Source: a virus | Reading direction: 5' to 3' (one strand) | Length of the DNA stretch: 40,480 bases | IMG/VR virus record: IMGVR_UViG_3300026118_000013 | Coordinates: 1 to 40,480 of that record | Shown: piece after piece, positions 5,694 to 37,086 of the stretch | Layout of the letters: each line of letters begins with the position of its first letter | Numbering within the stretch: the first letter of the stretch is position 1 | Position numbers and translations under genes: made by a program | Notes under the pieces: model-generated | Told to the model about the DNA's origin: nothing | Database searches by the model: none | The model's input: only the letters and a program-made list of their open reading frames with translations

Positions 5694-5711
5694 TGTCAAA
5701 AACATTCTTGA
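5694..5711 (+). promoter_or_regulatory. Palindromic motif copy 1
   Basis: TGTCAAAAACATTCTTGA followed by AA, in the divergent gap between the terminase operon and the portal gene. Its TTGAAA end points to the portal start 84 bp away. On the minus strand the motif creates a TTGACA whose possible partner (TATTAG, 18 bp on) would serve the terminase operon. A second, weaker copy lies 53 bp downstream. Confidence 0.65.
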
Positions 5712-5746
5712 AATTTTAATCGGAATTATGTTTATTGAGGTTAAAG

Positions 5747-5764
5747 TGTCAAGAATTTTTTTTA
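5747..5764 (+). promoter_or_regulatory. Degenerate motif copy near the portal start
   Basis: TGTCAAGAATTTTTTTTA keeps the left half and most of the right half of the recurrent palindrome and lies 31 bp before the portal ATG. Two copies in one divergent control region would fit cooperative binding. Confidence 0.4.
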
Positions 5765-5794
5765 CTCTTACGCGAAATTACAACATGGGACTGA

Positions 5795-7759
5795 ATGGCA
5801 ACTGACTTCGATATTGTCTCGGACTTTACTCAAGATTATAACCGCGCTTACATGCTTCTTAATACTTATTACGCTGAAGCATATAGGGATGTAGGTTTCT
5901 ACTTAGGTAATCAGTGGTCGCTTGACCAAATGAAATACCTCAACGATGAGCGAAGAAATTCTTTCACATTCAATAAGAGCCGCAAAACTATCAACATGGT
6001 CTCAGGATACCTCAGCGCTAATCAGCAGCAGGGGATTGTAACGGCCAGAGAAAACTCCAATCCAGAGACGGCTGACCAGCTTACTGAATTACTACACACT
6101 CAGATGATGCCTAAAGGGTATCGTGCGATAAACCGCGCCAAACACAATTCATTAGTATCAGGAGTTTCATGGTTATCCCCTTGGATAGACTATAGAAGCG
6201 ATTACGTAAACGGGCGCATTGAGTTTCACCTTGATAACTGGAACGACGTCATCTGGGACCCTTTTAGCACACGCATGGACCTTGAGGATAGTACTTTTGT
6301 TGCTCGACGCAAGTATCTTAGCAAGGATGTTATAAAGTCGCTTGTACCTGGTTGTGAGCGAGAAATTGACGCAATGGGATACGGAAATAGGGACGAGAAG
6401 TTCACCTACGAACCTTATGCGCGACAATGGGGCCTGCAAGAGCTTCTGGCGTATAATGAGTACTGGAAACAACGATACAAAAAAGGATGGATTCTTGTCG
6501 ACAAAAATACAGGTGCACAAAAGCCCTGGAAAGGAGATAGGAACCGTCTGGCCATGCTTCAGCAAATGTTCCCCAACCTTGCCGTTATCGAAGGTTACTT
6601 TAAGACAGTGGAGTATAATGTTATTGTCGAGAACCGTTTACTCTACAGCGGTGAAGACCCTTGGGGAATTGGAGAGTACCCTTTTGTCCCGTACTACTGC
6701 GTATTCGACCCATCCTACGACCTATTTCAATGGAAGATACAAGGTTTACAAAGACTTCTTAGGGATTCCAATGAAGAATATAACATGCGAAAATCTAAGT
6801 TGCTGGACATCATGGATTCGCAGATTGGGTCGGGTTGGAAAGCAAAATCCGGAGCCGTGTCTAACCCAAAATCTCTTTTTCAGACTGGTCAAGGAAAGGT
6901 TATCTTCTTCAACCCTGGATTTGAAGTCTCTGACGCCGAACGCATAGATCCTCCTTCACTCCCTGAAAGCCTCTTCGCACTACAAGAATCCTTCGACGCT
7001 GATATCAAAGACTTTATCGATTTAGGTGCGCTCGCCAACGATCAAACCGACAGAATGAGTGCGATGCTTTTCAAAATGAAGACCTCAATGGCCATTATGC
7101 AGCTTGGTCCGATCATGGACAATTTCAAGGAAGCTGATTCTCTTGTAATGAAAAAAGTTCTCAAAATGATCCAGAAATTCACTCCAGAGAAGGTTGAGCG
7201 ATTAATCAAACAGGAACCGACAAACGAATTCTACAACGGAACCTTCCTGGAGTACGACATCGACTTCGCAGAGATGCCGATGACAGATTACCAGAAACAG
7301 TCAGCATTTATGCAAGCATGGACAATGAAGCAAGGTGGCGTCGATGTTCCAGACGAGATGCTTTGGGAGCTTTCACCTTACCCGATCAGCAAGAGAGGAG
7401 CTCAACTTGTTCAAGAGCAGCATGAAGCAGCCAAGGCAGCACAGCAGCAAGAGATGGAAGATAAGCAGCAGGTCAATCAGTTGCTACAGGCGAAGGCATT
7501 TACGGATATATCACTGGGAGAAGAGAGACTCAGCAGAATCAAATACGACGCAGCACTCAGTGAAGAAAGACTTGCAGCAGCTCAAGAAGAACGTTCTCGA
7601 AGTGTTCTTAATGATATTCGAGCAGTTAAAGAAATGGATGAAATTGACATGAACAACGCTGTAAAGCTGCTTGACATTGTGCGAGGTGTTGAAGAAGAAA
7701 ACAGGTTAGCCTCTATGGATACAGTGGTTCCTCAACCAGCAGTGAGTGAGAAAAAATGA
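5795..7759 (+). CDS. Portal protein, P22 type (654 aa)
   Basis: The portal forms the ring at the unique vertex through which DNA passes. The sequence begins MATDFDIVSDFTQDYNRAY and has the P22-portal pattern near residues 30-70: EAYRDVGFYLGNQWS, RNSFTFNKSRKTINMVSGYL. Later come the wing and crown regions and a Gln/Glu-rich helical barrel-like end (about 540-640; EAAKAAQQQEMEDKQQV). Length is slightly less than P22 gp1 (725 aa). It heads the long rightward virion operon, and its stop overlaps the next start (ATGA at 7756). Confidence 0.85.
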   Translation: MATDFDIVSDFTQDYNRAYMLLNTYYAEAYRDVGFYLGNQWSLDQMKYLNDERRNSFTFNKSRKTINMVSGYLSANQQQGIVTARENSNPETADQLTELLHTQMMPKGYRAINRAKHNSLVSGVSWLSPWIDYRSDYVNGRIEFHLDNWNDVIWDPFSTRMDLEDSTFVARRKYLSKDVIKSLVPGCEREIDAMGYGNRDEKFTYEPYARQWGLQELLAYNEYWKQRYKKGWILVDKNTGAQKPWKGDRNRLAMLQQMFPNLAVIEGYFKTVEYNVIVENRLLYSGEDPWGIGEYPFVPYYCVFDPSYDLFQWKIQGLQRLLRDSNEEYNMRKSKLLDIMDSQIGSGWKAKSGAVSNPKSLFQTGQGKVIFFNPGFEVSDAERIDPPSLPESLFALQESFDADIKDFIDLGALANDQTDRMSAMLFKMKTSMAIMQLGPIMDNFKEADSLVMKKVLKMIQKFTPEKVERLIKQEPTNEFYNGTFLEYDIDFAEMPMTDYQKQSAFMQAWTMKQGGVDVPDEMLWELSPYPISKRGAQLVQEQHEAAKAAQQQEMEDKQQVNQLLQAKAFTDISLGEERLSRIKYDAALSEERLAAAQEERSRSVLNDIRAVKEMDEIDMNNAVKLLDIVRGVEEENRLASMDTVVPQPAVSEKK

Positions 7760-8001
7760 ATAACGACGGATGGGGATTCATGGGAGCTGGAGCTTCCGAT
7801 AAGAGATTAGCCGGTGAAGATTTACAACACAATATTCAGCATGTAAAGCCGCTTTACAATTCAGGTGGTCCCGTTAAGGAAATGCTAAACAATGAAGCGA
7901 CGAGACACCAACAGGCCGGAACACATAGAAGTGCTCACATTAAGAGACACCAGGACAGAAATTATAACAGCCAGTATGGGCATGACACGCACAAATACTA
8001 G
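7756..8001 (+). CDS. Small His/Asn/Gly-rich protein (81 aa)
   Basis: Starts MNNDGWGFMGAGASDKRLAG and is rich in His, Asn and Gln, with few hydrophobics; probably extended or disordered. Translationally coupled to the portal by an ATGA overlap. First of a run of small genes between portal and scaffold; its place suggests a minor virion or assembly protein. No family recognised. Confidence 0.7.
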   Translation: MNNDGWGFMGAGASDKRLAGEDLQHNIQHVKPLYNSGGPVKEMLNNEATRHQQAGTHRSAHIKRHQDRNYNSQYGHDTHKY

Positions 8002-8009
8002 GAGAAATT

Positions 8010-8210
8010 ATGTTTGGATTTGATTTGTATCAGAGAGAAGAACTAGAGGCAAGTGCATGCAGTCAGCTGGATGTGGCAGGAATGCAGCCTCACGCAAGAG
8101 AATACCTTGAGTATGAGATGAATTGCGCAAGAAGTGAAAGAAAGTTTGAAATGATTGCCGATCAATTGATTGATTATCCAAGTGGCATTCAGTTTTCAGG
8201 AAAACCATGA
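8010..8210 (+). CDS. Small protein (66 aa)
   Basis: AGGAG lies just upstream of ATG 8010. The protein (MFGFDLYQREELEASACSQL, later MNCARSERKFEMIADQLI) is charged and helical. Unknown function; part of the portal-to-scaffold block of small genes. Confidence 0.65.
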   Translation: MFGFDLYQREELEASACSQLDVAGMQPHAREYLEYEMNCARSERKFEMIADQLIDYPSGIQFSGKP

Positions 8211-8222
8211 GAAAAGTGATAG

Positions 8223-8438
8223 ATGATAGCAGAAGGAAAGAAGGGTGTTTGCGAGTTTTGCAAAAGAGCCTACGAGAAAAAGAATAAACGACAGATGTTT
8301 TGCACACCCAATTGTCAAAGAGGGAAGCTGATCGAGTTAAGCAATATGAAGTGGTTTAAGAAAGTGAATTCACAGCTTCCAAGTAGAAAAGGCGCCAATA
8401 GTCCTCCAAAGCTAAATAAGGCAAGAGATGACAGCTAG
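8223..8438 (+). CDS. Small zinc-finger-like protein (71 aa)
   Basis: The N-terminal half has CEFCKRAYEKKNKRQMFC followed by TPNC: a C..C...15...C....C arrangement resembling FCS/MYM-type zinc fingers. The rest is basic (FKKVNSQLPSRKGAN). It may bind nucleic acid or act as an assembly cofactor. It overlaps the next gene by 11 bases. Confidence 0.7.
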   Translation: MIAEGKKGVCEFCKRAYEKKNKRQMFCTPNCQRGKLIELSNMKWFKKVNSQLPSRKGANSPPKLNKARDDS

Positions 8439-8646
8439 TATGTTTCAAGGCGAAGGTGGTTACACAAGCGTTGTGGGCGAGAAGCCTAAACGTGTTGCCG
8501 CATTGAAACAAGGATCAGTTGGACCGACAATGAGCGACTTGCAGTTTGAGATGGAGAATGAGCGAAAGCAGCATCAACAGGCTTATGAATATGAGCATGG
8601 AAGTCACAGCGATGACAACTTACCATTAGGAAAGGCTTCGTTTTGA
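8428..8646 (+). CDS. Small Gln/His-rich protein (72 aa)
   Basis: MTASMFQGEGGYTSVVGEKP opens a polar protein with a helical middle (MSDLQFEMENERKQHQQAYEY). It overlaps both neighbours; its TGA overlaps the TTG start of the next gene. No family recognised. Confidence 0.65.
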   Translation: MTASMFQGEGGYTSVVGEKPKRVAALKQGSVGPTMSDLQFEMENERKQHQQAYEYEHGSHSDDNLPLGKASF

Positions 8647-9146
8647 TTTTGCAGCTTAATCCTCCATTGCCAATGATGACTCCGAAAGGAAGCGGTTATG
8701 CAAACTTCCTGATAGAAAGAGGCATGGAGTTTGACCTTGAATGGGTTGTTTTTCTGGATAACAAAGAAGTTTGGTCATTCCAGAATAGAGATGTGAGACT
8801 TGATAGTAACATAACTTTTGGAAGAGTAGATGGGAAAAGGAAACGAACCGATGAATACGCTGAAGCCGCAGCCAGGGCAGAGCAATACTTACAATCCGAA
8901 ATTCCATCCACTACCAGGAGTTTGGGCCGAGGAGCAACTCAATTTGTCTACCGGCCTCCCGCGACAGCACACTTCTACAACGATGACTGGGTCGTCAACC
9001 TCGTCCCTACAAAAAGCCCTAGCAGCGGAGAGACAGCAACACGAGTATTGGGAAAAGTGGCAGGGAGTGACACCGGGAAAAGCAGTATACGAAAACCCAA
9101 GAGAGCTGCAAAACACATTGCTTCCAAGTGCAAAATACGGGACTGA
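8643..9146 (+). CDS. Conserved small phage protein with odd C-terminal extension
   Basis: The first 60 residues (MILQLNPPLPMMTPKGSGYA; FDLEWVVFLDNKEVWSFQNRDVR; NITFGR) match a common 60-70 residue phage protein that sits between portal and coat genes. The start is TTG 8643, with AGGAAAGG seven bases upstream. After NITFGR the frame stays open for another 100 codons, overlapping the next gene by 317 bases in another frame. The extension is rich in Arg, Thr, Ser and Pro like a shadow. A TAG lies at 8827-8829 in the neighbour's frame, immediately before its ATG, so a single-base change upstream would restore a normal short gene. I trust only 8643 to about 8829. Confidence 0.7.
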   Translation: MILQLNPPLPMMTPKGSGYANFLIERGMEFDLEWVVFLDNKEVWSFQNRDVRLDSNITFGRVDGKRKRTDEYAEAAARAEQYLQSEIPSTTRSLGRGATQFVYRPPATAHFYNDDWVVNLVPTKSPSSGETATRVLGKVAGSDTGKSSIRKPKRAAKHIASKCKIRD

Positions 9147-9165
9147 AGGCAGAGGGTATGGATAA
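8830..9165 (+). CDS. Small protein, likely virion assembly (111 aa)
   Basis: MGKGNEPMNTLKPQPGQSNT leads to NPKFHPLPGVWAEEQLNLST and QKALAAERQQHEYWEKW. The composition is more protein-like than the overlapping frame. GGAAG lies five to six bases before ATG 8830. No family recognised; the position between portal and scaffold fits a minor head protein. Its end overlaps the next gene by eight bases. Confidence 0.7.
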   Translation: MGKGNEPMNTLKPQPGQSNTYNPKFHPLPGVWAEEQLNLSTGLPRQHTSTTMTGSSTSSLQKALAAERQQHEYWEKWQGVTPGKAVYENPRELQNTLLPSAKYGTEGRGYG

Positions 9166-9406
9166 GGTTGATCTAAAAGAAAAGTTTGATGGCGTCCTAA
9201 CCGTCGTTAAAAGACGTATTTCCTTCATGAAAGAAAGTGAAGTTAAAGAAGAAATAGAGAGAAAAGGAAAGATGGAGTTCATTCAATTATGGGCTCCTCC
9301 GAAAGTGAAAGTGACTATAGAGGTTTTAGATGAAGAAGAAGATCAGTGCATTAAAGAAAGCGCGGAGTGCCTTGAAGAAAGCAGAGCATGTGAACACTCC
9401 TGTTAG
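9158..9406 (+). CDS. Small charged protein (82 aa)
   Basis: From ATG 9158 (GAAGG eight bases upstream) the protein reads MDKVDLKEKFDGVLTVVKRR, then IQLWAPPKVKVTIEVLDEEE, and ends with a Cys-rich tail. A GTG at 9128 is an alternative start. The last 77 bases overlap a Lys-rich frame at 9330, so one of the two may be incomplete. Unknown function. Confidence 0.55.
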   Translation: MDKVDLKEKFDGVLTVVKRRISFMKESEVKEEIERKGKMEFIQLWAPPKVKVTIEVLDEEEDQCIKESAECLEESRACEHSC

Positions 9407-9449
9407 CATTAAGAACAAATTGAACACAAAAAAGGAGAAGAAGGCATGA
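9330..9449 (+). CDS. Very small Lys-rich protein (39 aa)
   Basis: MKKKISALKKARSALKKAEH continues to a Lys-rich end. AGAGG sits six bases before ATG 9330, and the TGA overlaps the next ATG (9446). The heptad-like SALKKA repeats suggest an amphipathic basic helix, possibly DNA-binding. It overlaps the end of the previous gene by 77 bases. Confidence 0.5.
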   Translation: MKKKISALKKARSALKKAEHVNTPVSIKNKLNTKKEKKA

Positions 9450-9676
9450 AAGACCAAGCTGGATTCGAAAGCATGGAGCGAAACAACGAGCGTCAGCCGA
9501 TGGTGAGCCACCAGAGTGAGACGACTCCTCAGTCTGTTGCTAATAACTGGCAAGCAGGCGTGTACGAGATGAAGAGTGAAGCAATGGATGAAGCTTATGG
9601 CATGGCAGGAAAGGGCGATGTTCAGAAAGACTTCGGAAAGGCTCATTCGCAATTTAGAGATTATAACTGGGCTTAA
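9446..9676 (+). CDS. Small polar protein (76 aa)
   Basis: An excellent ribosome site (AAGGAGAAGAAGG) precedes ATG 9446. The protein (MKDQAGFESMERNNERQPMV; NNWQAGVYEMKSEAMDEAYG; FGKAHSQFRDYNWA) is polar and probably helical in the middle. No family recognised. Confidence 0.65.
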   Translation: MKDQAGFESMERNNERQPMVSHQSETTPQSVANNWQAGVYEMKSEAMDEAYGMAGKGDVQKDFGKAHSQFRDYNWA

Positions 9677-9885
9677 CAACGATAGAACCACTTCCACCAA
9701 GAGTTGAAAAATGGCTGGTGAAGAAGTGGAGAGAATATTTAGGAATTGATGGAAACGACACTAATAGGACAAAAACGCAACTCCAATATGCAGGAGATGG
9801 GCGAGACAAGAGAACCGATGGCAGCAGATTGCTGGTCCGACGCAAACCGCTTAGCGGAGATGTATTCCAAGAAGTTGCATCATGA
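9667..9885 (+). other. Protein-like open frame lacking a normal start
   Basis: Between TAA 9664-9666 and TGA 9883-9885 one frame is open for 72 codons with no ATG, GTG or TTG near its beginning. It reads IEPLPPRVEKWLVKKWREYL from ATA 9682, more protein-like than the competing frame over the same bases. It could be a gene with a CTG or ATA start, a frameshifted extension, or a remnant. It overlaps the first part of the gene at 9749. Confidence 0.35.
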
Positions 9886-10159
9886 CTTCTGGGTTTTGTT
9901 TGCAGCTAAGCCTCATGTCACTCAGAAAAATGCAATTGTCAACGGTTGGGAAGTAATCGCAAAACGACCTCCTCAGCCAATGGTTGGAGTTCTTGTTTTT
10001 AAATGGATTCACAAGGAAAAGCGACTTACGGTTGAAACCGACTTGAGCTTGCCTTATGACATTCCTATTAGTGAAGCAGAAATGTCCTCGAGCATGAAAG
10101 ACTTTAACCCAATTCTTGCAGACACTGCAAAGAAATCAGGGTCGATACTTTTAGCATAA
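9749..10159 (+). CDS. Protein of unknown function before the scaffold (136 aa)
   Basis: The convincing part is the C-terminal 110 residues: CWSDANRLAEMYSKKLHHDF, WEVIAKRPPQPMVGVLVFKW, TVETDLSLPYDIPISEAEM. The first 20 or so residues overlap a protein-like frame and may not be coding; starts at 9788, 9797 or 9818 are alternatives. The gene ends before a terminator, closing the portal operon. A head-related role is inferred from position only. Confidence 0.65.
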   Translation: METTLIGQKRNSNMQEMGETREPMAADCWSDANRLAEMYSKKLHHDFWVLFAAKPHVTQKNAIVNGWEVIAKRPPQPMVGVLVFKWIHKEKRLTVETDLSLPYDIPISEAEMSSSMKDFNPILADTAKKSGSILLA

Positions 10160-10201
10160 TTTTAGGTCGCGTTAACTTCGCCAACCTACTTTAAAGGCTT
10201 A

Positions 10202-10237
10202 CCGTTGAGCCAGCCTGGCAAATCAACGGACTTTTTT
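10202..10237 (+). terminator. Rho-independent terminator
   Basis: CCGTTGA (10202-10208) pairs with TCAACGG (10223-10229); GCCAG/CTGGC lies inside the loop; six T follow (10232-10237). It separates the portal and small-gene block from the scaffold-coat block. Confidence 0.75.
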
Positions 10238-10246
10238 GGCTTATGA

Positions 10247-10264
10247 TGTCAAAAAAATTCTTGA
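10247..10264 (+). promoter_or_regulatory. Palindromic motif copy 2
   Basis: TGTCAAAAAAATTCTTGA followed by AAA, ten bases past the terminator and 43 bp before the scaffold gene. A TATGAT lies directly upstream. This placement at the head of the coat-protein unit supports a role in starting transcription there. Confidence 0.7.
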
Positions 10265-10306
10265 AAACGGGCGTGAACCGATCCGTCGCCGGGATCATAA
10301 GGAAAT

Positions 10307-11065
10307 ATGGATATTGATATGTCAAGACCTGGGACTGAGCTATTCCCTGAGTCTAACAATTACAGCTCAAACGACGTAACTCAGGATCAATTCGTCGGTG
10401 ATCCACTAAACACGGGCGTAACACAGCAAGACGTCGCCGGTCAGCAATTGTCCGATAAGGAGATGAACTTTCGGGCACTACGTGATGAAACAGCCAAGTT
10501 GAAAGAAGAGGCGAGTTATTGGAGGGGCCAAGCAGAAGCGTATGCAAAAGTTCCAACTCGTCAACCAGAATCAGTGCAAGCAACTAAACAAGATGCATTA
10601 AATGCGTTGGATTTGGATGACTCGCGCGACGTTAGGAAGGCTTTCGACGCTATTAGGCAGGAGAACATTCAACTCCGGGAAGAGATAAAAGATGCTCTCA
10701 CTGCCATAGAAACAAAGTCTCAGCGTCAGGACTGGAACAACATGGTCACACAGCACGTACCGCAATTAACTAGTAAGAACCCGATATTTGCCGAGATGAT
10801 TCGCAATGCATCCAATCCCTATGAGGCAGCTTATTTGTTAGCGGAATTGAATTCAAGAGCAAGCACTCCCGTCCAGAACCAAAACCAGAATATGGCTTTG
10901 GGAAGTCAACAGACTAATGGACAAAGAGCGCTAGCAAATGCATCCAAGCCGCAAACATTAGCTACCGTTGGTGGTCAAGGACAGCTTAGTGCTGCTGATT
11001 ACTACGCTAGCATGTCTGATGAGGACTTCCATAAGATCGCATCGAGGAATCTGGCCGGTATCTAA
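10307..11065 (+). CDS. Probable scaffolding protein (252 aa)
   Basis: The gene sits directly before the coat gene. The protein has a polar N-terminus, a coiled-coil stretch (FRALRDETAKLKEEASYWRG; IRQENIQLREEIKDALTAIE), a Gln/Asn-rich linker and a short ordered end (SAADYYASMSDEDFHKIASR). Acidic, helical, Gln-rich proteins just before the coat gene are usually scaffolds that guide prohead assembly and are removed later. Scaffolds are poorly conserved, so the call rests on position and composition. Confidence 0.65.
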   Translation: MDIDMSRPGTELFPESNNYSSNDVTQDQFVGDPLNTGVTQQDVAGQQLSDKEMNFRALRDETAKLKEEASYWRGQAEAYAKVPTRQPESVQATKQDALNALDLDDSRDVRKAFDAIRQENIQLREEIKDALTAIETKSQRQDWNNMVTQHVPQLTSKNPIFAEMIRNASNPYEAAYLLAELNSRASTPVQNQNQNMALGSQQTNGQRALANASKPQTLATVGGQGQLSAADYYASMSDEDFHKIASRNLAGI

Positions 11066-11080
11066 CCGATAGGTTGATAT

Positions 11081-12025: not shown

Positions 12026-12036
12026 GGAGGAATGAA

Positions 12037-12744: not shown

Positions 12745-12750
12745 TCAAAC

Positions 12751-12777
12751 GGGGGAAGGACTTTACATCCTTCCCTC
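12751..12777 (+). terminator. Hairpin between capsid-operon genes (partial terminator or processing site)
   Basis: GGGAAGGA (12753-12760) pairs perfectly with TCCTTCCC (12768-12775), extendable by two pairs, loop CTTTACA. Only four T follow, seven bases later. It could attenuate transcription between the abundant coat proteins and the later genes or protect the upstream message. Confidence 0.55.
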
Positions 12778-18406: not shown

Positions 18407-18408
18407 CA

Positions 18409-21974: not shown

Positions 21975-21992
21975 TGTCAAGAAAATTATTGA
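21975..21992 (+). promoter_or_regulatory. Palindromic motif copy 3
   Basis: TGTCAAGAAAATTATTGA followed by AAA, in the 48-base gap before the tail-fibre cassette; its end is only 15 bases from the ATG at 22007 and directly abuts the ribosome site AAGGAG. A bound protein here could block translation-coupled transcription or mark a new unit. Confidence 0.65.
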
Positions 21993-22006
21993 AAAAGGAG
22001 TAAACC

Positions 22007-28430: not shown

Positions 28431-28974
28431 TCCTTTTTCCTTTGTTAAAAAAGTGCCAACAGTCAAGGGCGCACAAAAAGATTCTTGTCTCTTCAGACAT
28501 GTCTTCTAACCTATGCACTTTGGGAGTGTCGCCCTCTCTGTCGAGATACACTAATTGGGCGCCCTTGACGTAAACACCATGATTCTTTAGTAAGTACTGA
28601 TAGGCTGCCATTTGAACCGGATAAGTCTTTTGCGGGGCAGCGCTAGTCTTCAAGTCAACAAGCCAATCTTGGCCAGCCTTACTCTTTACAACAAAGTCGA
28701 GTTGTCCGGAAAAATTCCTCTCTTCGTCTTGATATCTTTTCTCGATAATCATAAACTCAGCAACTTCTTCATCGGCCCACTTTCTAAAAGAATCAACGTA
28801 TCCTTTTAGTTCTTGAGGCACCATTCCATCCGGAACCCATGCTCCTTTTGCGATTCCGGCACAAATTGCATGGACAGAACTGCCCCTGGCTGCGGCTTTT
28901 TCCAAAATATTCTTAGGTACATATTGGAATCCTGAAAAGTATCTAAGTATCTCTGTAACTCTAGGTGCTTTCAT
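28402..28974 (-). CDS. PD-(D/E)XK exonuclease, Cas4/RecB-like (190 aa)
   Basis: From MKAPRVTEILRYF the order is RGSSVHAICAGI (motif His), FSGQLDFVVK (Asp), WLVDLKTS (DxK) and VQMAAYQYLL (Gln/Tyr helix). These are the catalytic marks of RecB/Cas4-type nucleases. It probably resects DNA to make the single strands that ERF anneals. I chose ATG 28974 instead of the frame from 29034, because the longer start would put the promoter and the palindromic motif inside the gene. Confidence 0.85.
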   Translation of the reverse strand: MKAPRVTEILRYFSGFQYVPKNILEKAAARGSSVHAICAGIAKGAWVPDGMVPQELKGYVDSFRKWADEEVAEFMIIEKRYQDEERNFSGQLDFVVKSKAGQDWLVDLKTSAAPQKTYPVQMAAYQYLLKNHGVYVKGAQLVYLDREGDTPKVHRLEDMSEETRIFLCALDCWHFFNKGKRNVRRNTRKS

Positions 28975-28979: not shown

Positions 28980-28997
28980 TGTCAAAATCTTTCTTGA
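28980..28997 (+). promoter_or_regulatory. Palindromic motif copy 4
   Basis: TGTCAAAATCTTTCTTGA followed by AAA. On the minus strand it lies just after the -10 box of the nuclease-ERF promoter, covering the expected transcription start, an ideal place for a repressor. In its own orientation its TTGAAA end points to the ribbon-helix-helix gene at 29079, 82 bp away. Confidence 0.7.
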
Positions 28998-29005
28998 AAA
29001 TCTGG

Positions 29006-29034
29006 TTCATAACTTTTAAATTGGTTCTTGTCAA
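29006..29034 (-). promoter_or_regulatory. Sigma70-type promoter of the nuclease-ERF operon
   Basis: On the minus strand TTGACA (29034-29029), 17 bases, then TATGAA (29011-29006). The start would fall about seven bases on, inside the palindromic motif, and 30 bases before ATG 28974. Confidence 0.65.
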
Positions 29035-29078
29035 GATAATGCGTAAAGTTTAATTTTCATTTTCTATTTGGAGGAATA

Positions 29079-29318
29079 ATGGCTAGGAGGAATTTCCTTA
29101 ACGACGCCTTAGTTGTCTCTTGCAAAATTGAAAGAGACATGCTTAATACACTGCATGACCTAGCAGCTTTAGAGTCCCTGCACTCCGGAAGAACTGTTAG
29201 CGTTCAGGAGCTGATCAGAAACGCCTTAGAGTACGTTTACACTGACAATGAGAGATTGCGTGAAGCTTTCAGAAGAAGTCGTTCACACGTTTCAAAGCGT
29301 CTTAAAATAAAATATTGA
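29079..29318 (+). CDS. Ribbon-helix-helix regulator (79 aa)
   Basis: ALVVSCKIERDMLNTLHDLA, then SVQELIRNALEYVYTDNERL: a beta strand followed by two helices, the Arc/CopG/MetJ plan. A long basic helix ends the protein (AFRRSRSHVSKRLKIK). GGAGG precedes ATG. It is divergent from the nuclease-ERF operon and could regulate that gap or the replication genes downstream. A near-perfect palindrome lies at its stop codon. Confidence 0.75.
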   Translation: MARRNFLNDALVVSCKIERDMLNTLHDLAALESLHSGRTVSVQELIRNALEYVYTDNERLREAFRRSRSHVSKRLKIKY

Positions 29319-31016: not shown

Positions 31017-31393
31017 AAGAAAAAGTTGGAGCCGGCCCCCAAGAGGTTGAAGTCGGCAATTTTAGAGTAATCAACAAAAACTCTTTGAAGGCTACTTTTA
31101 GCCTTTGTATCTATCCCGAAGGGCAAAAAATCCTTGAATGCCGTTATTTCGTTAAGGACAATCAGAGATGGTTTAACTTCCCTCAAAAAGAAATTAAAGA
31201 CAGGGAAGGTAATCAAGATTACATTCCTTTAGTAAGCTATATGAATAAAGATTACCAAGAACAATTAAAAGAATCTGTAATTAAATTATTAAAACAATCG
31301 GAAGAAGATTATGAAAAAAACCCTCCCTCCTATGCGAAAAAGAACAGTTTTCAAGGTGAAGCACCCACTAATCGGGAAGGACTGCCGTTTTAA
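31013..31393 (+). CDS. SpoVG-like single-strand nucleic-acid-binding protein (126 aa)
   Basis: FRVINKNSLKATFSLCIYPE, KILECRYFVKDNQRWFNFPQ and KEIKDREGNQDYIPLVSYMN follow the short phage proteins related to SpoVG, which bind single-stranded nucleic acid and often replace SSB in recombination cassettes. A polar tail ends the protein. Its position between the helicase and the RusA-like genes agrees. The last 83 bases overlap the next gene. Confidence 0.55.
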   Translation: MKEKVGAGPQEVEVGNFRVINKNSLKATFSLCIYPEGQKILECRYFVKDNQRWFNFPQKEIKDREGNQDYIPLVSYMNKDYQEQLKESVIKLLKQSEEDYEKNPPSYAKKNSFQGEAPTNREGLPF

Positions 31394-31538
31394 AACCTGG
31401 CTTGAGCTTGTTCAACATGTTGTTGAAGTTTCAGAAAATGAAGCAAAGAACCAGCTCTACGATCAGTTTATGAAGGTTGCATTAACTATATCCGATGAAA
31501 TCCTTGAAACCATTGAAGAAATAGACGATGAGCCTTAA
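31311..31538 (+). CDS. Small protein (75 aa)
   Basis: MKKTLPPMRKRTVFKVKHPL begins basic; the end is acidic (ISDEILETIEEIDDEP). GGAAGAAG lies close before ATG; a start at 31332 is possible. It overlaps genes on both sides. Unknown function. Confidence 0.6.
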   Translation: MKKTLPPMRKRTVFKVKHPLIGKDCRFKTWLELVQHVVEVSENEAKNQLYDQFMKVALTISDEILETIEEIDDEP

Positions 31539-32115
31539 GCAGATTATTCAGCGCAGCCAAACTTTCAACCGGGAAGGCATAGAAGCCGAACTTGTCTTGC
31601 CCGGTGAACCTAATATTTATAGCATTAAGGTTAATTTGGCGCGCCGTTCTTACACATTACAATATTTTCGGAACATGAAATTTAAATCGATCCTTAAATG
31701 TTTTTTTCTGTCCTACATGAAAACCACTACTCCGGTCGTGATAGTTGTAAAGTTCTTTGTAACGCCTCCGTCTAATGTGAAAATCAGTAAACGCGAATTG
31801 AATAAAGAGTCTGTGCCGGCAGCTCAATCCCATGAACTTTGCGACTATCTCCTTTCGTTTCAAGAAATGCTTCATTTAGTCCTTTTTAACTCATATCGGC
31901 AGGTAGTTAAGCTGGATGCAGAGAAGTACTATAGTAGCAATCCAAGAACTGTTTTTAAATTTATGTCATGGGCTAATTATGTCGTATTGCAAAATATTGA
32001 TTCCGTTCACTCCTCAAACAAAGGCAAAGATAAGCCTACAGACCAAGGGCTTTTACCAGCCAATGACACGGGGCTTGAAGCACACCAAGACGCTTGTAAA
32101 GAAGCAATTCGGTGA
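31528..32115 (+). CDS. RusA-like protein, possibly inactive (195 aa)
   Basis: VVIVVKFFVTPPSNVKISKR, then HELCDYLLSFQEMLHLVLFN and SYRQVVKLDAEKYYSSNPRT, with FKFMSWANYVVLQ. The order (strand, D.l..f...l..vlf, .q.v.l...K.y) is that of RusA-type resolvases, but the usual cluster of catalytic Asp residues is mostly absent. It may be a structural partner of the RusA gene that follows. The last 45 codons overlap that gene and are less protein-like. Confidence 0.5.
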   Translation: MSLKQIIQRSQTFNREGIEAELVLPGEPNIYSIKVNLARRSYTLQYFRNMKFKSILKCFFLSYMKTTTPVVIVVKFFVTPPSNVKISKRELNKESVPAAQSHELCDYLLSFQEMLHLVLFNSYRQVVKLDAEKYYSSNPRTVFKFMSWANYVVLQNIDSVHSSNKGKDKPTDQGLLPANDTGLEAHQDACKEAIR

Positions 32116-32464
32116 TGCGCCCCTTTATGATGGCCCTCTTTTTATGTGTGTGCATTACGTTATACCTGCTCCGCTCTCTTTGCCAGAAATAAAACGTAAG
32201 CCGATGCATGGTCATGCGCATATGAGGAAGCCTGAACCACAATATTTTGACGACTATCTCAACGCTGTACTCACTGATATTGTTTATACGCCAGAGTCAA
32301 GAGTAGTTTGCTTTTTACGAACCAAAACTTTGACAAAAGAAAAAGTTGGCAAGACAATTATTTTTATCCGCCAACTTGGTGAAGGAAATTTCAATTATCA
32401 ATATCCTTTTATTTTGGACGATATTGAAAAAAATCTAATTATTGAACCTTTTGAAAATAATTAA
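31979..32464 (+). CDS. RusA-family Holliday-junction resolvase-like protein (161 aa)
   Basis: MSYCKILIPFTPQTKAKISL, LFMCVHYVIPAPLSLPEIKR, KPEPQYFDDYLNAVLTDIVY, SRVVCFLRTKT. RusA enzymes have K.D.DN...A..D.l.. and a nearby D; here PEPQYFDDYLNAVLTDIVY supplies two Asp plus a further one, in the same spacing. It should cut branched recombination or packaging intermediates as a dimer. ATG 31979 is chosen because upstream codons only repeat the previous gene's other frame. Confidence 0.6.
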   Translation: MSYCKILIPFTPQTKAKISLQTKGFYQPMTRGLKHTKTLVKKQFGDAPLYDGPLFMCVHYVIPAPLSLPEIKRKPMHGHAHMRKPEPQYFDDYLNAVLTDIVYTPESRVVCFLRTKTLTKEKVGKTIIFIRQLGEGNFNYQYPFILDDIEKNLIIEPFENN

Positions 32465-32536
32465 TAATCTATTATATACTGTATAATTAACATTAGAAAT
32501 GCCACAACCATATATTTAAGTATTGTTTGTGCCATA

Positions 32537-32782
32537 TTATAATGCCTTCTTTTCATTATGGCATTGATTAAACAAACAATGGCCACTTGTTGCAAGGCTT
32601 CCTTCAATTTTGCATAAACGTTTGTCTATTTCATCTACTTTTTGCGTTAATTCCTTTAATTCAATTTTAACTTCTTTGATTTTCTCCTCAAGCCTGTTAT
32701 AGAAAAACCATATCATAACTCCGATGGCAAACAATTGTATAATATTTACTTCTTTAAATAATTCTATAATCAATTCAGTCAT
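32537..32782 (-). CDS. Single-span membrane protein with coiled coil, holin-like (81 aa)
   Basis: MTELIIELFKEVNIIQLFAI then GVMIWFFYNRLEEKIKEVKI: one membrane segment followed by a heptad-rich coiled coil (LKELTQKVDEIDKRLCKIE) and a His/Cys tail. This plan is like XhlA/holin-accessory proteins. It overlaps the integrase end as ATGA (32779-32782). A lysis role is possible but no lysin is next to it. Confidence 0.65.
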   Translation of the reverse strand: MTELIIELFKEVNIIQLFAIGVMIWFFYNRLEEKIKEVKIELKELTQKVDEIDKRLCKIEGSLATSGHCLFNQCHNEKKAL

Positions 32783-33696
32783 ACTAATACCTCTTCTTCT
32801 TTGTGTCCCTTTCTAGGGTGAAAGTTATGAAACATTTCTTGCATCTTGTTACTGCTTAAATGTGTATACCTCTGTGTGCTTGCAATAGAGCTATGCCCTA
32901 ATACCTCTTGAATCAGTCTTAAATCTGCTCCCGAATCAAGCAAATGTGTAGCGCAAGCATGTCTTAGCGTGTGCGTTGTAACGTCATCCAACTTCGCCTT
33001 TTGCGCATATCCTGTTACCATCTTAAACAAAAACTGTCTTCTAACGGGCGAGTTATTGATTGTAGTAAATAGAGGCCCTTTGCTTTTGCCCCTATAATCC
33101 TGAATGTATTTGTTTATCCAAAAATACGCTTCTTCCGTGATAGGTACAGTCCTTGTTTTCCCTCGCTTACCGCAAGAAACAAGGATACTATCTTCCGTGA
33201 AATGATTTATTTGCAAGTCGCATAGCTCCGTTGCTCTTAATCCGCTGGAATAAAGCAACTCAAGGATTGCTCTATCTCTCATTCCTGATTCTGTTGTAAT
33301 ATCTGGTTGCTCAAGCAGTAAATTAATCTCTTCAAGCGTTGGAATTCGTGGCGCCGGCATCCTTCTTGTTGGTGAGTGAATATCTTGGGAAATGTCTTGG
33401 TCCATAAACTTATTTCTCCTTAAAAACCGGCAAAATGATCGTATCGACATGAAATACCGGTTGATTGTTGAATCGCTCTTGCCATTTTGGTTACATTTAC
33501 CTAAATATTCTACTATATGCAAGGGTTTTAGGGTAGAAAGTCTTTTAATATTTCTTTCACACAGGAAGTCAAAGAACATTTCTAAATCTTTCCTGTAGTA
33601 CTCAACGGTTAAATGACTTTTGCTTAAAGCTATCTCTGCACAATAGCTATTGAGTGTCTCTTTCATCCAAGTTAAAATCATTAATTGTTTTTTCAT
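32779..33696 (-). CDS. int: Tyrosine recombinase / integrase, XerC/D-like (305 aa)
   Basis: An N-terminal SAM-like core-binding domain (LTVEYYRKDLEMFFDFLCER) is followed by the catalytic domain: Arg in SSGLRATEL (about 172), Lys in the beta-hairpin CGKRGKTRTVP, HTLRHACATHLL (His-x-x-Arg), LGHSSIASTQRYTHL (His and the nucleophile Tyr). All six catalytic positions are present. The even, short architecture is closer to XerC/XerD than to lambda Int. ATG 33696 has AAAGGA nine bases upstream. It overlaps the ribbon-helix-helix gene by 50 bases; no attP was found. Confidence 0.92.
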   Translation of the reverse strand: MKKQLMILTWMKETLNSYCAEIALSKSHLTVEYYRKDLEMFFDFLCERNIKRLSTLKPLHIVEYLGKCNQNGKSDSTINRYFMSIRSFCRFLRRNKFMDQDISQDIHSPTRRMPAPRIPTLEEINLLLEQPDITTESGMRDRAILELLYSSGLRATELCDLQINHFTEDSILVSCGKRGKTRTVPITEEAYFWINKYIQDYRGKSKGPLFTTINNSPVRRQFLFKMVTGYAQKAKLDDVTTHTLRHACATHLLDSGADLRLIQEVLGHSSIASTQRYTHLSSNKMQEMFHNFHPRKGHKEEEVLV

Positions 33697-33865
33697 TAAA
33701 AAGATTCCTTTGTTTTTGATGGTGTGCATTTAAATATTCTAAGTATTTTACTATAGCGTAAGTTTTGGTAACCCCATGATCTATACAAAGTTTCGAAAAC
33801 ATTGCGTATAAGTCCGCCGGTATTTTCAAATTCATTGACTGTGTGCCTATTTTTCGGTTTCTCAT
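33647..33865 (-). CDS. Ribbon-helix-helix protein next to integrase (72 aa)
   Basis: QSMNLKIPADLYAMFSKLCI, then VTKTYAIVKYLEYLNAHHQK: a strand and two helices of the Arc/CopG fold. AGAGAG lies before ATG 33865. It overlaps the integrase at one end and, by 170 bases, the upstream frame at the other. It could act as an excisionase-like or lysogeny regulator. Confidence 0.65.
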   Translation of the reverse strand: MRNRKIGTQSMNLKIPADLYAMFSKLCIDHGVTKTYAIVKYLEYLNAHHQKQRNLFNEKTINDFNLDERDTQ

Positions 33866-34007
33866 AAATTTCTCTCTGTAATTTGTTTATCTCTCTTTGC
33901 ATTCTATCAAGTAGCATTTCTGCCATAACGCCTTTGCGGTTTTCTTCCTTGAATCTTGCTAAAAGAGCCATTTCATTTTCAAGTTGCATTTGTTTTTGGT
34001 TTTCCAT
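33696..34007 (-). CDS. Small helical protein with overlapping tail (103 aa)
   Basis: Residues 1-48 (MENQKQMQLENEMALLARFK; VMAEMLLDRMQREINKLQRE) are a convincing coiled coil. From about residue 49 the frame lies over the ribbon-helix-helix gene for 170 bases and loses protein character. A one-base shift would end it with an ATGA overlap, the normal arrangement here, so the tail may be a mutation, an error or overprinting. Confidence 0.55.
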   Translation of the reverse strand: MENQKQMQLENEMALLARFKEENRKGVMAEMLLDRMQREINKLQREIYEKPKNRHTVNEFENTGGLIRNVFETLYRSWGYQNLRYSKILRIFKCTPSKTKESF

Positions 34008-34032
34008 ATAATCAAACTACCTTGGTTTTATA

Positions 34033-34049
34033 GGGCGCCGTTAACGCCC
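34033..34049. other. Small GC-rich hairpin between leftward genes
   Basis: GGGCG and CGCCC flank CCGTTAA. A TATAAA follows on the minus strand, so this could be part of an internal control region upstream of the gene at 34007. No T-run. Confidence 0.4.
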
Positions 34050-34056
34050 ATTTCGT

Positions 34057-34269
34057 TTAGGTCGAAGAAGGAGCACTTGTTCCTTCTTCAATTAAATAAT
34101 GAATGCCTTGCTTGCCGTAACAAGATTGCATGTCTTCACACGAAGTGTTTTTGCTTATAACCTCCGCGCATCTGTTGCAAAGTCCATAGCCTTTGTCTCT
34201 ATTGTGCCATTGCCTGCCTTTTGCAAGTTGGCCACAGCAACAACACTTAAGTAATCTAATAGGCTTCAT
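34057..34269 (-). CDS. Zinc-binding small protein (70 aa)
   Basis: LLKCCCCGQLAKGRQWHNRD then GYGLCNRCAEVI gives C..C...(17)...C..C, a treble-clef or zinc-ribbon arrangement. Coupled to the gene before by an ATGA overlap. Function unknown; similar proteins are common in phage accessory operons. Confidence 0.7.
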   Translation of the reverse strand: MKPIRLLKCCCCGQLAKGRQWHNRDKGYGLCNRCAEVISKNTSCEDMQSCYGKQGIHYLIEEGTSAPSST

Positions 34270-34574
34270 TCTTCCACCTCACACTTATTGCATGTTTCGC
34301 CTCTTATCCTGCAATCAGGCTCAAAACCTTCATGGCCACAGTTGCCACAATAGTACCACTGCTCAAGCATATCACCGTTCATCATTGCGCATTGAAAGTC
34401 CTCATTTATTAAGAACACGTGCCCGCTTATATGGTTCATCATCGGACTAACGTTTTCAGGTATAAAACCACTTGGCAAGCCTTGTTCCTGCCATGCTTTC
34501 AATAATTCTATCAATTTGTTTCTACCTTTGTAGCCAAATTCTGTTAAGTCTTGTGTCGTTGACTCTTTATTCAT
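34266..34574 (-). CDS. Zinc-ribbon protein (102 aa)
   Basis: The C-terminus has YYCGNCGHEGFEPDC and CNKCEVEE, two CxxC pairs. The N-terminal helix (RNKLIELLKAWQEQGLP) may dimerise. ATGA overlaps link it to both neighbours. No family recognised. Confidence 0.7.
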   Translation of the reverse strand: MNKESTTQDLTEFGYKGRNKLIELLKAWQEQGLPSGFIPENVSPMMNHISGHVFLINEDFQCAMMNGDMLEQWYYCGNCGHEGFEPDCRIRGETCNKCEVEE

Positions 34575-34798
34575 TGTTTCTCCTTTTCTGTTATAATTTG
34601 TGATCCTTCCGCGAAGGTGTATTGCTCCATCAAAGATCGCTTAAATCTTCTCTGTGTTTTAAATTGGCATGAGCTGCATATGTAAACAAAGTCGTCATCC
34701 TTTAGTTTCAGGTAGGCGTTTAACTTAGGATACAGCTTACCAGTGAAATAAGTGTCACTGTGCATGCCTGTTTGGGTATTGTAATGGTTACTAATCAT
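34571..34798 (-). CDS. Small CxxC protein (75 aa)
   Basis: MISNHYNTQTGMHSDTYFTG; the single CSSC at about residue 41 (DDFVYICSSCQFKTQRRFKR) is followed by a basic stretch. Part of the tight leftward string of zinc-binding genes. Confidence 0.65.
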   Translation of the reverse strand: MISNHYNTQTGMHSDTYFTGKLYPKLNAYLKLKDDDFVYICSSCQFKTQRRFKRSLMEQYTFAEGSQIITEKEKQ

Positions 34799-35091
34799 TT
34801 TTGCGCCTCATATTTCAAGTTTTCTAGGACTTGCGCTGCCATATGCATACTCAAAAACATTTCGGCAGAGGTTCTTCTTACTGCACCAAATGGATGGCTA
34901 ACAGATCCCATTTCGCCTATTTCTTCAATGACATATCCGCCATATATTGAGCTGTAATCTAACACCCAACCACCTGGTAAATGGTCAACACCGTCTGCAT
35001 TATCATTTACAAGTATTGGATGCGCTTGCTTGTCATAAGCCTTGAGTAATCGCTTAAACATTCCTTGCACTTCTTTCTTTGTGTATCTCAT
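34795..35091 (-). CDS. Conserved phage protein of unknown function (98 aa)
   Basis: MRYTKKEVQGMFKRLLKAYD; GGWVLDYSSIYGGYVIEEIG; SVSHPFGAVRRTSAEMFLSM. The core G.W.LDY...YGGY.I.EI......HP.G..R....M pattern is frequent among phages, always uncharacterised. First gene of the leftward small-gene operon. The 250-base gap before it (35092-35343) shows no clear gene or strong promoter. Confidence 0.75.
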   Translation of the reverse strand: MRYTKKEVQGMFKRLLKAYDKQAHPILVNDNADGVDHLPGGWVLDYSSIYGGYVIEEIGEMGSVSHPFGAVRRTSAEMFLSMHMAAQVLENLKYEAQK

Positions 35092-35343
35092 GTGTTTTCG
35101 CCTATTCTTATTGTTTGCTTACATTCAAACGCTACAACCTGGCCAGTGTTACTTGGCTATCAGGGAGACAGATTGAATTTGCTCTTGTTACACACTTACG
35201 ACTTTGTATCGTTCGTGCTTGTGATTAACAATAACATGCTAGCTAGATTTCTGTCTACTGTTTTTGTGTGTATTGCATTAAATGGGTGTTTTGGCTAGTG
35301 TAAGGGAAAGTGTATCAACAACTTACAACAAAGGCTATGTAAC

Positions 35344-35772
35344 ATGAAAGGAAAGAAGCTATCAGTTAAAGAACGGATGGAAAAATTAGAGAAAGACTCA
35401 AATTATAGAAAACAGATCTTCAAAGAATTGTGCCAACATATTTCGAAAGGTTTCTCTCTTGATTGCTTTAGTGCGTTGAGTGAAAATTCAATTAGGACTT
35501 ACATAAAACTATATCCCAATGAGTTCGTTCAGGAAGAATTAGAGCAAGCTATGCGGGATGGTAAAGAAGCATGGGAGCAAATTGGTTACAGACAAAGTAA
35601 TGGGTCTTGCTTAGGTAACTCAAGAAGCTGGTTTTATAACATGGCTCATAGGTACAAATGGTCTGATAGAGTGCAAGTTGAAGCTGAACATAAAGGACAA
35701 GTTGCGGTCAATGTTGTAAGCTATGCAAGCACAAAGGCTCCTAGTGATAGTGTAGAGGCACAATCAACATAA
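35344..35772 (+). CDS. Terminase small subunit-like protein (142 aa)
   Basis: IFKELCQHISKGFSLDCFSA, then SIRTYIKLYPNEFVQEELEQ, AMRDGKEAWEQIGYRQSNGS, SRSWFYNMAHRYKWSDRVQV. A helix-turn-helix followed by the WY...R....W.D....E pattern is typical of small terminases, which bind pac and recruit the large subunit. It is far from the large subunit and on the other strand. Repeats and a hairpin follow the gene at once and could be its pac site. I am confident of the family type, less so of the function. Confidence 0.7.
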   Translation: MKGKKLSVKERMEKLEKDSNYRKQIFKELCQHISKGFSLDCFSALSENSIRTYIKLYPNEFVQEELEQAMRDGKEAWEQIGYRQSNGSCLGNSRSWFYNMAHRYKWSDRVQVEAEHKGQVAVNVVSYASTKAPSDSVEAQST

Positions 35773-35860
35773 TATCAATTATGAATACCATGTTTGAACG
35801 TCTTGCGATGCATCATCTACTACACTTGTAATCACAATTAATAACTTGAAATTGTTTAGG

Positions 35861-35896
35861 ATCATTACCCCCATGGCCCCCATGCAGGGTAGTGAT
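35861..35896. repeat. Inverted repeat with CATG-rich loop
   Basis: ATCATTACCC (35861-35870) pairs with GGGTAGTGAT (35887-35896), ten pairs with one G-T, around a loop containing CCATGG and a second CCCCCATG. No T-run, so protein recognition is more likely than termination. Confidence 0.6.
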
Positions 35897-35920
35897 ACCT
35901 ATGTTCCGACCATGCTGAAA

Positions 35921-35964
35921 ATTTTTCCAAAACCAGGACTTAATTTTTCCTAACCAGAGCTTAA
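35921..35964. repeat. Two tandem 22-23-base repeats
   Basis: ATTTTTCC..AACCAG..CTTAA occurs twice head to tail (35921-35943 and 35943-35964) with a few differences. Iteron-like doubles of this size often bind initiator or terminase proteins. Confidence 0.6.
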
Positions 35965-36051
35965 CTCCTTAGACAAATCCGCACAGCACAGATACGTAAG
36001 TACCTAATACACAAAGGTTTGTGAAGCACCATGAGTGGAACACTAATCCCT

Positions 36052-36070
36052 ATGTAAAGCGGGTTTACAT
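36052..36070. other. Perfect 7-pair hairpin
   Basis: ATGTAAA and TTTACAT flank GCGGG, 60 bases before the sigma70 promoter. Could be an operator or cruciform. Confidence 0.5.
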
Positions 36071-36129
36071 TGCACGGAACCCATCGAGAAAATTATTTTC
36101 ATGCAATATTAAGGAATTAAAGAATTTTC

Positions 36130-36158
36130 TTGACATAACACCCCTACAACAGTATAAT
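36130..36158 (+). promoter_or_regulatory. Perfect-consensus sigma70 promoter
   Basis: TTGACA (36130-36135), exactly 17 bases, TATAAT (36153-36158). No other site in the window matches consensus so fully. Transcription would start near 36165, where no convincing gene begins, which points to an RNA product. Confidence 0.8.
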
Positions 36159-36164
36159 TTAGCG

Positions 36165-36280
36165 AAGAGAGATGTAAAGCAAGATGCATCAGACGCGACC
36201 GTTCGCGCAGCTCACTTGTCGCTAGGCAGATATCTCTCTGAGTGTTTTCTTCAGAAAAGCTTCAAGTTTTTTCTGAAGAC
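36165..36280 (+). ncRNA. Candidate structured small RNA
   Basis: The transcript from the perfect promoter would fold with its start and middle paired: AGAGAGAT (36166-36173) with ATCTCTCT (36232-36239), extendable by two pairs. Inside is CGCGA-CCGT-TCGCG (36194-36207); an alternative is GCGAC with GTCGC (36195-36199, 36218-36222). A perfect 10-pair hairpin CTTCAGAAAA/TTTTCTGAAG (36249-36278) closes the unit but lacks a T-run. No known RNA family is recognised. The RNA overlaps the 3' end of the convergent membrane gene, so it could also act as antisense to it. Confidence 0.5.
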
Positions 36281-36546
36281 GTAAGGAGAACTGTGCCTTC
36301 TTCTTGATTCGTAATCTCACGGTACTTTTCCAACATAGCTACGATGGAATTTCTTGATTTGAGGGCACTCTTAGACAGTTCGTTTAGTTCTTTTGCGAAT
36401 GCTTGTTGATCGAGAAGCATTCGCATCACCGTTTGGTTGATCTGTGCCTGTGCGTTTAGCTCATTTTGCACGTCATTGATTCGAACCGCAAGATATGCTA
36501 CCCACATACAGAGTAGAGGGATTACTGTGATAAGTATTTTTTCCAT
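36262..36546 (-). CDS. Membrane-anchored helical protein (94 aa)
   Basis: MEKILITVIPLLCMWVAYLA is a membrane anchor or uncleaved signal; the remainder is a long polar helix (NDVQNELNAQAQINQTVMRM; FAKELNELSKSALKSRNSIV). This N-in plan resembles i-spanins and other envelope proteins. AAGGAG lies before ATG 36546. Its own promoter carries the palindromic motif. Convergent with the candidate RNA. Confidence 0.65.
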   Translation of the reverse strand: MEKILITVIPLLCMWVAYLAVRINDVQNELNAQAQINQTVMRMLLDQQAFAKELNELSKSALKSRNSIVAMLEKYREITNQEEGTVLLTSSEKT

Positions 36547-36566
36547 TTTTTCTCCTTTTCTGGTGC

Positions 36567-36596
36567 ACTATAGCAGTTTCAAGAAAGTTTTTGCAA
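36567..36596 (-). promoter_or_regulatory. Sigma70-like promoter of the membrane gene
   Basis: On the minus strand TTGCAA (36596-36591), 18 bases, TATAGT (36572-36567), followed by AAGGAG and the ATG at 36546. The palindromic motif covers the -35 box and spacer, so a bound regulator would compete with or recruit polymerase. Confidence 0.6.
36579..36596 (-). promoter_or_regulatory. Palindromic motif copy 5 (minus orientation)
   Basis: TTGCAAAAACTTTCTTGA followed by AA on the minus strand; matches 13 of 15 fixed positions of the consensus. It is the only copy in minus orientation and the only one serving a minus-strand gene alone, with the TTGAAA end toward it, 33 bp from its ATG. Confidence 0.6.
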
Positions 36597-36652
36597 GTTT
36601 TCGTTTATTTTATTGAGCTTCTTGCGTATTCTAGCTCTCAAAGGAGCATATT

Positions 36653-37054
36653 ATGCCAGAAACACTCACAATACATTCCGCTGCAAAAAAGCTGAATTTG
36701 ACCAGACAAGCCGTTCATGCGGCAATTATTTCCGAGAAGCTCAAAGCAAACTATGAAAGCGGGCACTGGGAGATACATCCGGAGGACTTGGACAAATACA
36801 TTCAGAGCAAGTATGACAGAAAGTACTCCAAACATAATGGTGACAAGGTTTTTGATATGAAAAAGGGAACCATTTCAATCGCAAGGGCAGCAAGACTTCT
36901 TGAATATAGCTACAACGCATTATATTACTTAGTGGTTTCTGGACAGATACCTTCAAAACGCAAAAATAAGGCATATGTTGTGAAAATCGACGATATTAAT
37001 GCCGTTTCAGACAAGTTTTTCGATGGAAAACGCATTTTCTTACCCCTGGCTTGA
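36653..37054 (+). CDS. Two-domain excisionase/MerR-like DNA-binding regulator (133 aa)
   Basis: Two related helix-turn-helix units follow each other: LTIHSAAKKLNLTRQAVHAA...LKANYESGHWEIHPEDLDKYI (residues 4-55) and ISIARAARLLEYSYNALYYL...IPSKRKNKAYVVKIDDINAV (74-122). Each has the S.A.A..L......V...I..g.l.....g....i...D. pattern of excisionase/MerR-type winged helices. Two such domains in one chain would read a near-palindrome, such as the recurrent motif that flanks this gene on both sides (36579, 37069). AAAGGAG precedes ATG. Confidence 0.75.
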   Translation: MPETLTIHSAAKKLNLTRQAVHAAIISEKLKANYESGHWEIHPEDLDKYIQSKYDRKYSKHNGDKVFDMKKGTISIARAARLLEYSYNALYYLVVSGQIPSKRKNKAYVVKIDDINAVSDKFFDGKRIFLPLA

Positions 37055-37068
37055 GTTTTTTTCACATT

Positions 37069-37086
37069 TGTCAAATAATTTCTTGA
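37069..37086 (+). promoter_or_regulatory. Palindromic motif copy 6
   Basis: TGTCAAATAATTTCTTGA followed by AAA, 15 bases after the regulator stop and 78 bp before the next operon (37164). A half copy (TTGTCAAAAAG) lies at 37129-37139. Confidence 0.65.

Follow-up and report, generated by a model that had tools for sequence, protein, structure and literature searches.

The stretch of DNA analysed here (the window) is a virus record of 40,480 bp (IMG/VR IMGVR_UViG_3300026118_000013) with a G+C content of 42%, and a 99-bp direct repeat at both ends indicates that it is probably a complete phage genome. By profile matching, the portal protein resembles phrog_156, the coat protein phrog_1357 and the large terminase phrog_2472/phrog_2. 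A tyrosine recombinase, apparently an ordinary member of the integrase family and found in most relatives, suggests a temperate phage. Searches with the portal and coat proteins returned 33 and 80 loci, respectively, of the same phage family, and no relative was obtained from a coat-protein host search in two scans of bacterial genomes. A close cultured relative of the phage was looked for and none was found. Two overlapping ORFs in different frames (31528-32115 and 31916-32464) are both kept in most relatives, and are possibly two genes or one frameshifted gene.

Distributed through the window are ~8 copies of a ~20-bp imperfect palindrome (consensus TGTCAAAANNNTTCTTGA), in which six to seven of the ten pairs match and which is referred to here as E. 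The window's own, more symmetric spelling is TGTCAAnAAnnTTCTTGAAA. The copies and the genes considered with them are as follows, with mismatches counted against the consensus.

5694..5713, plus strand: E copy 1, portal promoter region, TGTCAAAAACATTCTTGAAA; 0 mismatches
5747..5766, plus strand: E copy 2, portal, TGTCAAGAATTTTTTTTACT; score 19.0 with a relatives-only matrix, at the position of the relatives' second E
10247..10266, plus strand: E before the scaffold-coat operon; 0 mismatches; relatives with a gap have TGACAAGtnnTTTTTTGAAA there
21975..21994, plus strand: E ahead of the fibre gene, extending to the Shine-Dalgarno sequence; 2 mismatches and a matrix match
28980..28999, plus strand: E in the gap from which the nuclease/ERF operon (minus) and the ribbon-helix-helix (RHH) gene (plus) diverge; 0 mismatches
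29028..29056, plus strand: putative RHH gene promoter, -35 TTGTCA, 17 bp, -10 TAATTT; by eye, TTGTCA-17-TATTTT in many relatives
29079..29318, plus strand: RHH protein of 79 aa, a candidate reader of E; 19 of 20 related records have a homolog
32779..33729, minus strand: tyrosine recombinase; Pfam Phage_integrase, 4e-39
36116..36135, minus strand: E between a terminase-small-like gene and the gene 36262-36546; 2 mismatches, matrix score 15.2
36577..36596, minus strand: intergenic E that overlies a promoter-like TTGCAA-18-TATAGT, with gene 36262-36546 on one side and the HTH_17 gene on the other; 2 mismatches
36653..37054, plus strand: 133-aa tandem HTH_17 protein with an E at either end of its gene, rival candidate binder; Pfam HTH_17 in two stretches
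37069..37088, plus strand: E directly 3' of the HTH_17 gene, before the 37164 / SPFH unit; 1 mismatch; kept in the partial relative L042
37130..37149, plus strand: weak E-like site; 3 mismatches

The copies listed by a first-pass annotation of the window were all located, with no mismatch at 5694, 10247 and 28980, one at 37069 and two at 21975 and at 36579 on the minus strand, together with its weaker copy at 5747 and its half site (at 37130), each with three mismatches. The list had omitted a minus-strand copy at 36118 (TGTCAAGAAAATTCTTTA), and a further copy lies within a gene at 37202 (AGACAAGAAAATTCTTGA). The TCAA-N8-TTGA core ascribed to every full copy is not kept in the minus-strand copy at 36579, TTGCAAAAACTTTCTTGA, which has GCAA for TCAA. 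At up to three mismatches TGTCAAAANNNTTCTTGA matched the window 18 times where 3.28 matches were expected, and none of 100 dinucleotide shuffles gave more than 10; TCAA-N8-TTGA matched seven times against 1.77 expected (shuffle maximum 6). Five of the latter seven are intergenic, in a window with 8.9% intergenic DNA (P = 1e-4), and two, at 6909 and 17057, lie inside genes. The proposed preference for gaps over genes is thus borne out, with no excess within genes.

The copy at 5694..5713 overlaps a possible -35 hexamer, TTGTCA, 17 bp before TTAATC, when aligned by eye with the TTGCCA-17-TTTACT of relatives. Comparison with relatives places the true ATG of the minus-strand nuclease/ERF operon at 28974, the likely start, which puts the copy at 28980 5 bp upstream of it and ~80 bp from the RHH gene. 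A second palindrome-like sequence has two copies, at 7841-7858 (ATGTAAAGCCGCTTTACA) and 36053-36070 (TGTAAAGCGGGTTTACAT), and a similar stretch, ggccgctttacat, comes after an E in the relative G005.

Conservation of the palindrome across the phage family

Absence of the motif from matching places in related phages had been named as one of two observations that would count against E, and the exact window spelling is indeed almost absent from the relatives' loci. This objection was overturned once homologous leaders were compared, the relatives having a version of E at those places. The pattern TG[TA][AC]AAGnnWWTTWTTT[GT]AA recurs at homologous places before the scaffold, fibre, portal and other operons. 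Each close relative with an intergenic gap before the scaffold gene has TGACAAGtnnTTTTTTGAAA, in that form or a variant, where the window has its 10247 copy, and those without such a copy have no gap there. The relatives' fibre leader carries TGTAAAGtAATTATTTGAA, ending at the Shine-Dalgarno sequence, and an E stands at the place matching the window fibre copy in G001, G006, G007, G008, G010, G011, G012, G014 and others. In the portal leader of relatives one reversed E lies over the TTGCCA-17-TTTACT promoter and a second, forward E precedes the start codon; a reversed E is also found before terminase-small. An E-kind palindrome is situated 70-82 bp before the RHH start, adjoining the divergent nuclease/ERF start, in the window and seven relatives; judged by palindromy alone, some of these exceed shuffles and others do not.

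From this comparison, what is conserved in E is its position and the pattern TG[TA][AC]AAG-N7-TT[TG]AA, and the window spelling is its own. The consensus first put forward has a positional counterpart across the family, its exact spelling being confined to the window phage and, less perfectly, L042, in which the counterpart of the weak site 37130..37149 is more palindromic (TGTCAAGTACATTCATGAC). The further claim that the TTGAAA end always faces a gene fails in relatives, given the reversed copies described above. Because E is nearly palindromic, any orientation rule is weak. Among sites scoring at least 14 with the matrix described below, about half (33 of 69) face a same-strand start within 100 nt, which counts against the operator reading given below.

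The 20-bp matrix was built solely from the scaffold and fibre sites of relatives, and the window was never used for training. At a score of at least 12 it matched 60 sites in gaps and 19 in coding sequence across 21 genomes, a 28-fold difference per base with the training sites included, and since the relatives' genes were called mechanically as longest ORFs, some of the 'coding' matches may be misfiled gaps. Intergenic matches numbered 52, where shuffled gaps gave 0.45 on average, and the window alone gave nine against 0.28 in shuffles. Matrices made from scaffold sites only or fibre sites only recovered each other's sites, with 48 and 52 further intergenic matches, respectively, against 17 and 24 coding ones. 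The relatives (768 kb) contained 60 matches scoring at least 14 and 35 scoring at least 20, against eight and none in unrelated viral contigs (526 kb); a first version of this control was biased, its contigs having been picked by the motif, and these counts are from a rerun with the seed sites removed. No clear E was seen in G009 or G018 in the matrix scan. Five E-like copies at ~70-110 bp spacing lie in and around a short ORF at ~4457-4827 of contig L164 (G017).

When all viral contigs were searched with the exact window motif, 62 single matches were obtained in phages of other families, in which only two window proteins had any match. At these matches, read as a -35, -10 hexamers were no commoner than at ordinary TTGACA sites. 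Two contigs of an unrelated phage (L190 and L191) carry four TGTCAAGAACTTTCTTGAaaat-like palindromes. One of the four overlaps a TTGACA-18-TATAAT promoter, and the set may be a dispersed operator in its own right.

Taken on these sequence comparisons, E is almost certainly a shared gene-control switch of the phage family. Its most probable form, to which a rough probability of 0.58 is assigned, is a dispersed operator of a phage-encoded regulator, partly embedded in late promoters.

Promoter context and the scaffold leader

In 16 of the 25 strong sites with a downstream Shine-Dalgarno sequence and start codon (class A), TTG stands exactly 10 bp before E, and any other offset of TTG accounts for at most one site. 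In these structural-type sites a distance of 17 bp separates the -35-like TTG from the end of E, TTTGAA or TTTTAA. The window fibre copy has TTATCA at the -35-like place, and the scaffold copy has TTGGCT with an 18-bp spacer. Many other E sites lack TTG (class B), and regulatory-gene sites mostly do so. By eye, a -35 of the same type is seen in relatives in the promoter of the RHH gene, TTGTCA-17-TATTTT, and in that of the portal, TTGCCA-17-TTTACT.

Such an arrangement could mean that E is a core promoter element and no operator, defining a class of late promoters for the host RNA polymerase, possibly with an alternative sigma factor or an activator. The exact 17-bp distance between TTG and TTTGAA at most structural-gene sites would fit this, as would the retention of E across genomes with different regulators and its end at or near the Shine-Dalgarno sequence or the scaffold pseudoknot, from which transcription could start just after E. 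We nevertheless consider it unlikely, because TTTGAA is a poor -10, far from TATAAT, because so many copies belong to class B and because E is reversed over the portal promoter and before terminase-small; in addition, no phage RNA polymerase or sigma factor was recognised among the window genes inspected. Given that TTG is mostly missing at regulatory-gene sites, E appears to be more than a promoter core, yet built into late promoters. Sigma-54, TyrR, CtsR and HspR consensus sites do not fit E in their spacing.

Directly after E, the scaffold leader of the window (10270-10296) and of relatives contains a conserved RNA pseudoknot, formed between GGCG and a CGCC that lies in a hairpin loop (5-bp stem). 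Pairing holds in 97.5% of cells and double changes occur at six of the nine pairs; cells with double changes number 23 against 5.3 in shuffles, and a slide of one to three columns destroys the signal. A scan of the window with Rfam at gathering thresholds returned tRNAs only. Because the pseudoknot precedes the start of scaffold-coat and persists where E is missing, it may plausibly act in translational control of the capsid operon.

Candidate binding proteins

Two window proteins, both named in the first-pass annotation, were considered as readers of E. The RHH protein has homologs in every related record apart from G019, which is incomplete (30.6 kb), and in this sample it is present where E is. 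Profile matches to the fold are weak, with Pfam RHH_4 in five of 19 members (best 0.0013) and CopG-like profiles also appearing, and phrog_876, a transcriptional repressor family, matches 12 members. Foldseek gave weak, low-similarity matches with Reg576 and ParD among the top. The DNA-contacting strand follows a V-S-[RK] pattern in most members; G010 has a canonical E with a different strand.

The tandem HTH_17 protein, modelled with two helix-helix-hairpin domains, has homologs in seven of 20 relatives and in L028 and L042, and is missing from G007, G008, G010, G012, G014 and others that have E. An E lies at the 3' end of its gene or adjoins it in the window, G001, G003, G006, G015 and G016, but not in G009 or G011. 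The window and L042 proteins form a subtype of their own, paralleling the spelling of E in these two phages. An HTH_38-like protein adjoining a ParB-like protein occurs in G002, G005, G007, G008, G009, G012, G013 and G014, mostly genomes without the HTH_17 gene, G009 having both. A universal link of E to either module was ruled out, as E occurs with either.

No candidate follows E perfectly, G010 speaking against the RHH protein and the HTH_17 gene being missing in many genomes. Presence and position favour a phage regulator with a dispersed operator, the RHH core protein being its likeliest, still tentative, reader; the tandem HTH_17 protein is a doubtful one, and the remaining weight falls on another protein or a host factor. 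A bolder version, in which the RHH protein is the master repressor of the whole family, acting at dispersed ~20-bp palindromes in late-promoter spacers and at its own divergent promoter, is rather unlikely. If true, early and late operons would be held by one operator whose spelling drifts between lineages. Arc and Mnt of phage P22 are small RHH repressors that bind ~20-bp near-palindromes and regulate their own region. The present candidate is likewise small and has a ~20-bp near-palindrome in its own region, whereas Arc and Mnt act at a single immunity region and the E sites are dispersed, RHH binding here being putative.

The promoter-element and host-factor readings are kept beside the dispersed operator. 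E might be bound by a host protein, whether a transcription factor or a nucleoid protein such as one of the IHF type, the common spelling of E in phages with unrelated regulator modules being expected where a host is shared. The IHF consensus, WATCAAnnnnTTR, resembles the left half of E, but E is roughly symmetric where IHF sites are not; this reading is regarded as improbable.

A probable dispersed operator and its closest known counterparts

As a dispersed operator, E would be read by a candidate DNA-binding regulator of the phage that controls several operons of this podovirus-like family, namely the portal, scaffold-coat and fibre operons, the nuclease/ERF operon together with the gene of the regulator, and the region around HTH_17. 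At the late, structural operons E would fill the spacer and the -10-like end of the promoter (TTG, 17 bp, TTTGAA), and a protein bound there would decide the use of the promoter by RNA polymerase. At other operons it would overlap the -35 or else follow the promoter, ahead of the start codon. We infer both that a protein binds E and that binding represses. The window's own symmetric spelling would be as seen where phage operators drift together with their repressors. The initial proposal of one phage regulon, with E an operator or promoter part, survives in that one regulatory element marks several transcription-unit starts, without the strict orientation and exact consensus attached to it.

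A search of open-licence papers found none describing the E consensus. The operators and stoperators of cluster A mycobacteriophages (L5, L1) present a site, GGTGGMTGTCAAG, in many copies in the gaps and promoters of one phage genome, and from one related phage to another the sites stay similar while diverging along with the repressor (PMC6550527). E likewise is one site repeated across operons with a spelling that drifts between relatives, and the L5-type repressor, a two-domain monomer (PMC9283540), recalls the tandem HTH_17 protein. The letters TGTCAAG occur in both E and the cluster A site (PMC1934351), probably by coincidence. The L5 site, however, is 13 bp, asymmetric, present in more than 20 copies and subject to an orientation rule, from which E differs in length, symmetry, consensus and copy number, in its reversal at some operons (in relatives before terminase-small and over the portal promoter) and in its place inside late promoters; the cluster A repressors are also unlike the candidates found here. 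That E is a roadblock of this kind, halting elongation between operons in lysogeny, is very unlikely: its multiple copies in short gaps, mostly aligned with transcription at structural operons, and the recombinase of most relatives would agree with it, but E coincides with promoter-like elements at late operons and is near-palindromic and in places reversed. Chance similarity among leaders that are A+T-rich is refuted by the far lower counts in dinucleotide-preserving shuffles, coding DNA and unrelated contigs.

The SPBRE of SPbeta, a repeated intergenic element first found in silico and later identified as the site of the master repressor MrpR (PMC10516654), resembles the dispersed operator proposed here in the manner of its discovery. 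Its motif is 15 bp and MrpR has a tyrosine-recombinase fold, whereas the recombinase here looks like an ordinary integrase. In our analysis E would thus work like the cluster A stoperators or SPBRE and is a member of neither system, since length, symmetry, orientation and copy number differ.

With E, gene control in this widespread family of uncultured phages, of which ~100 related contigs were found, becomes accessible for the first time. The operator matrix yields predictions of the responding operons and of the phages that should differ in specificity, so the regulon, the late promoters and possible immunity groups become testable.
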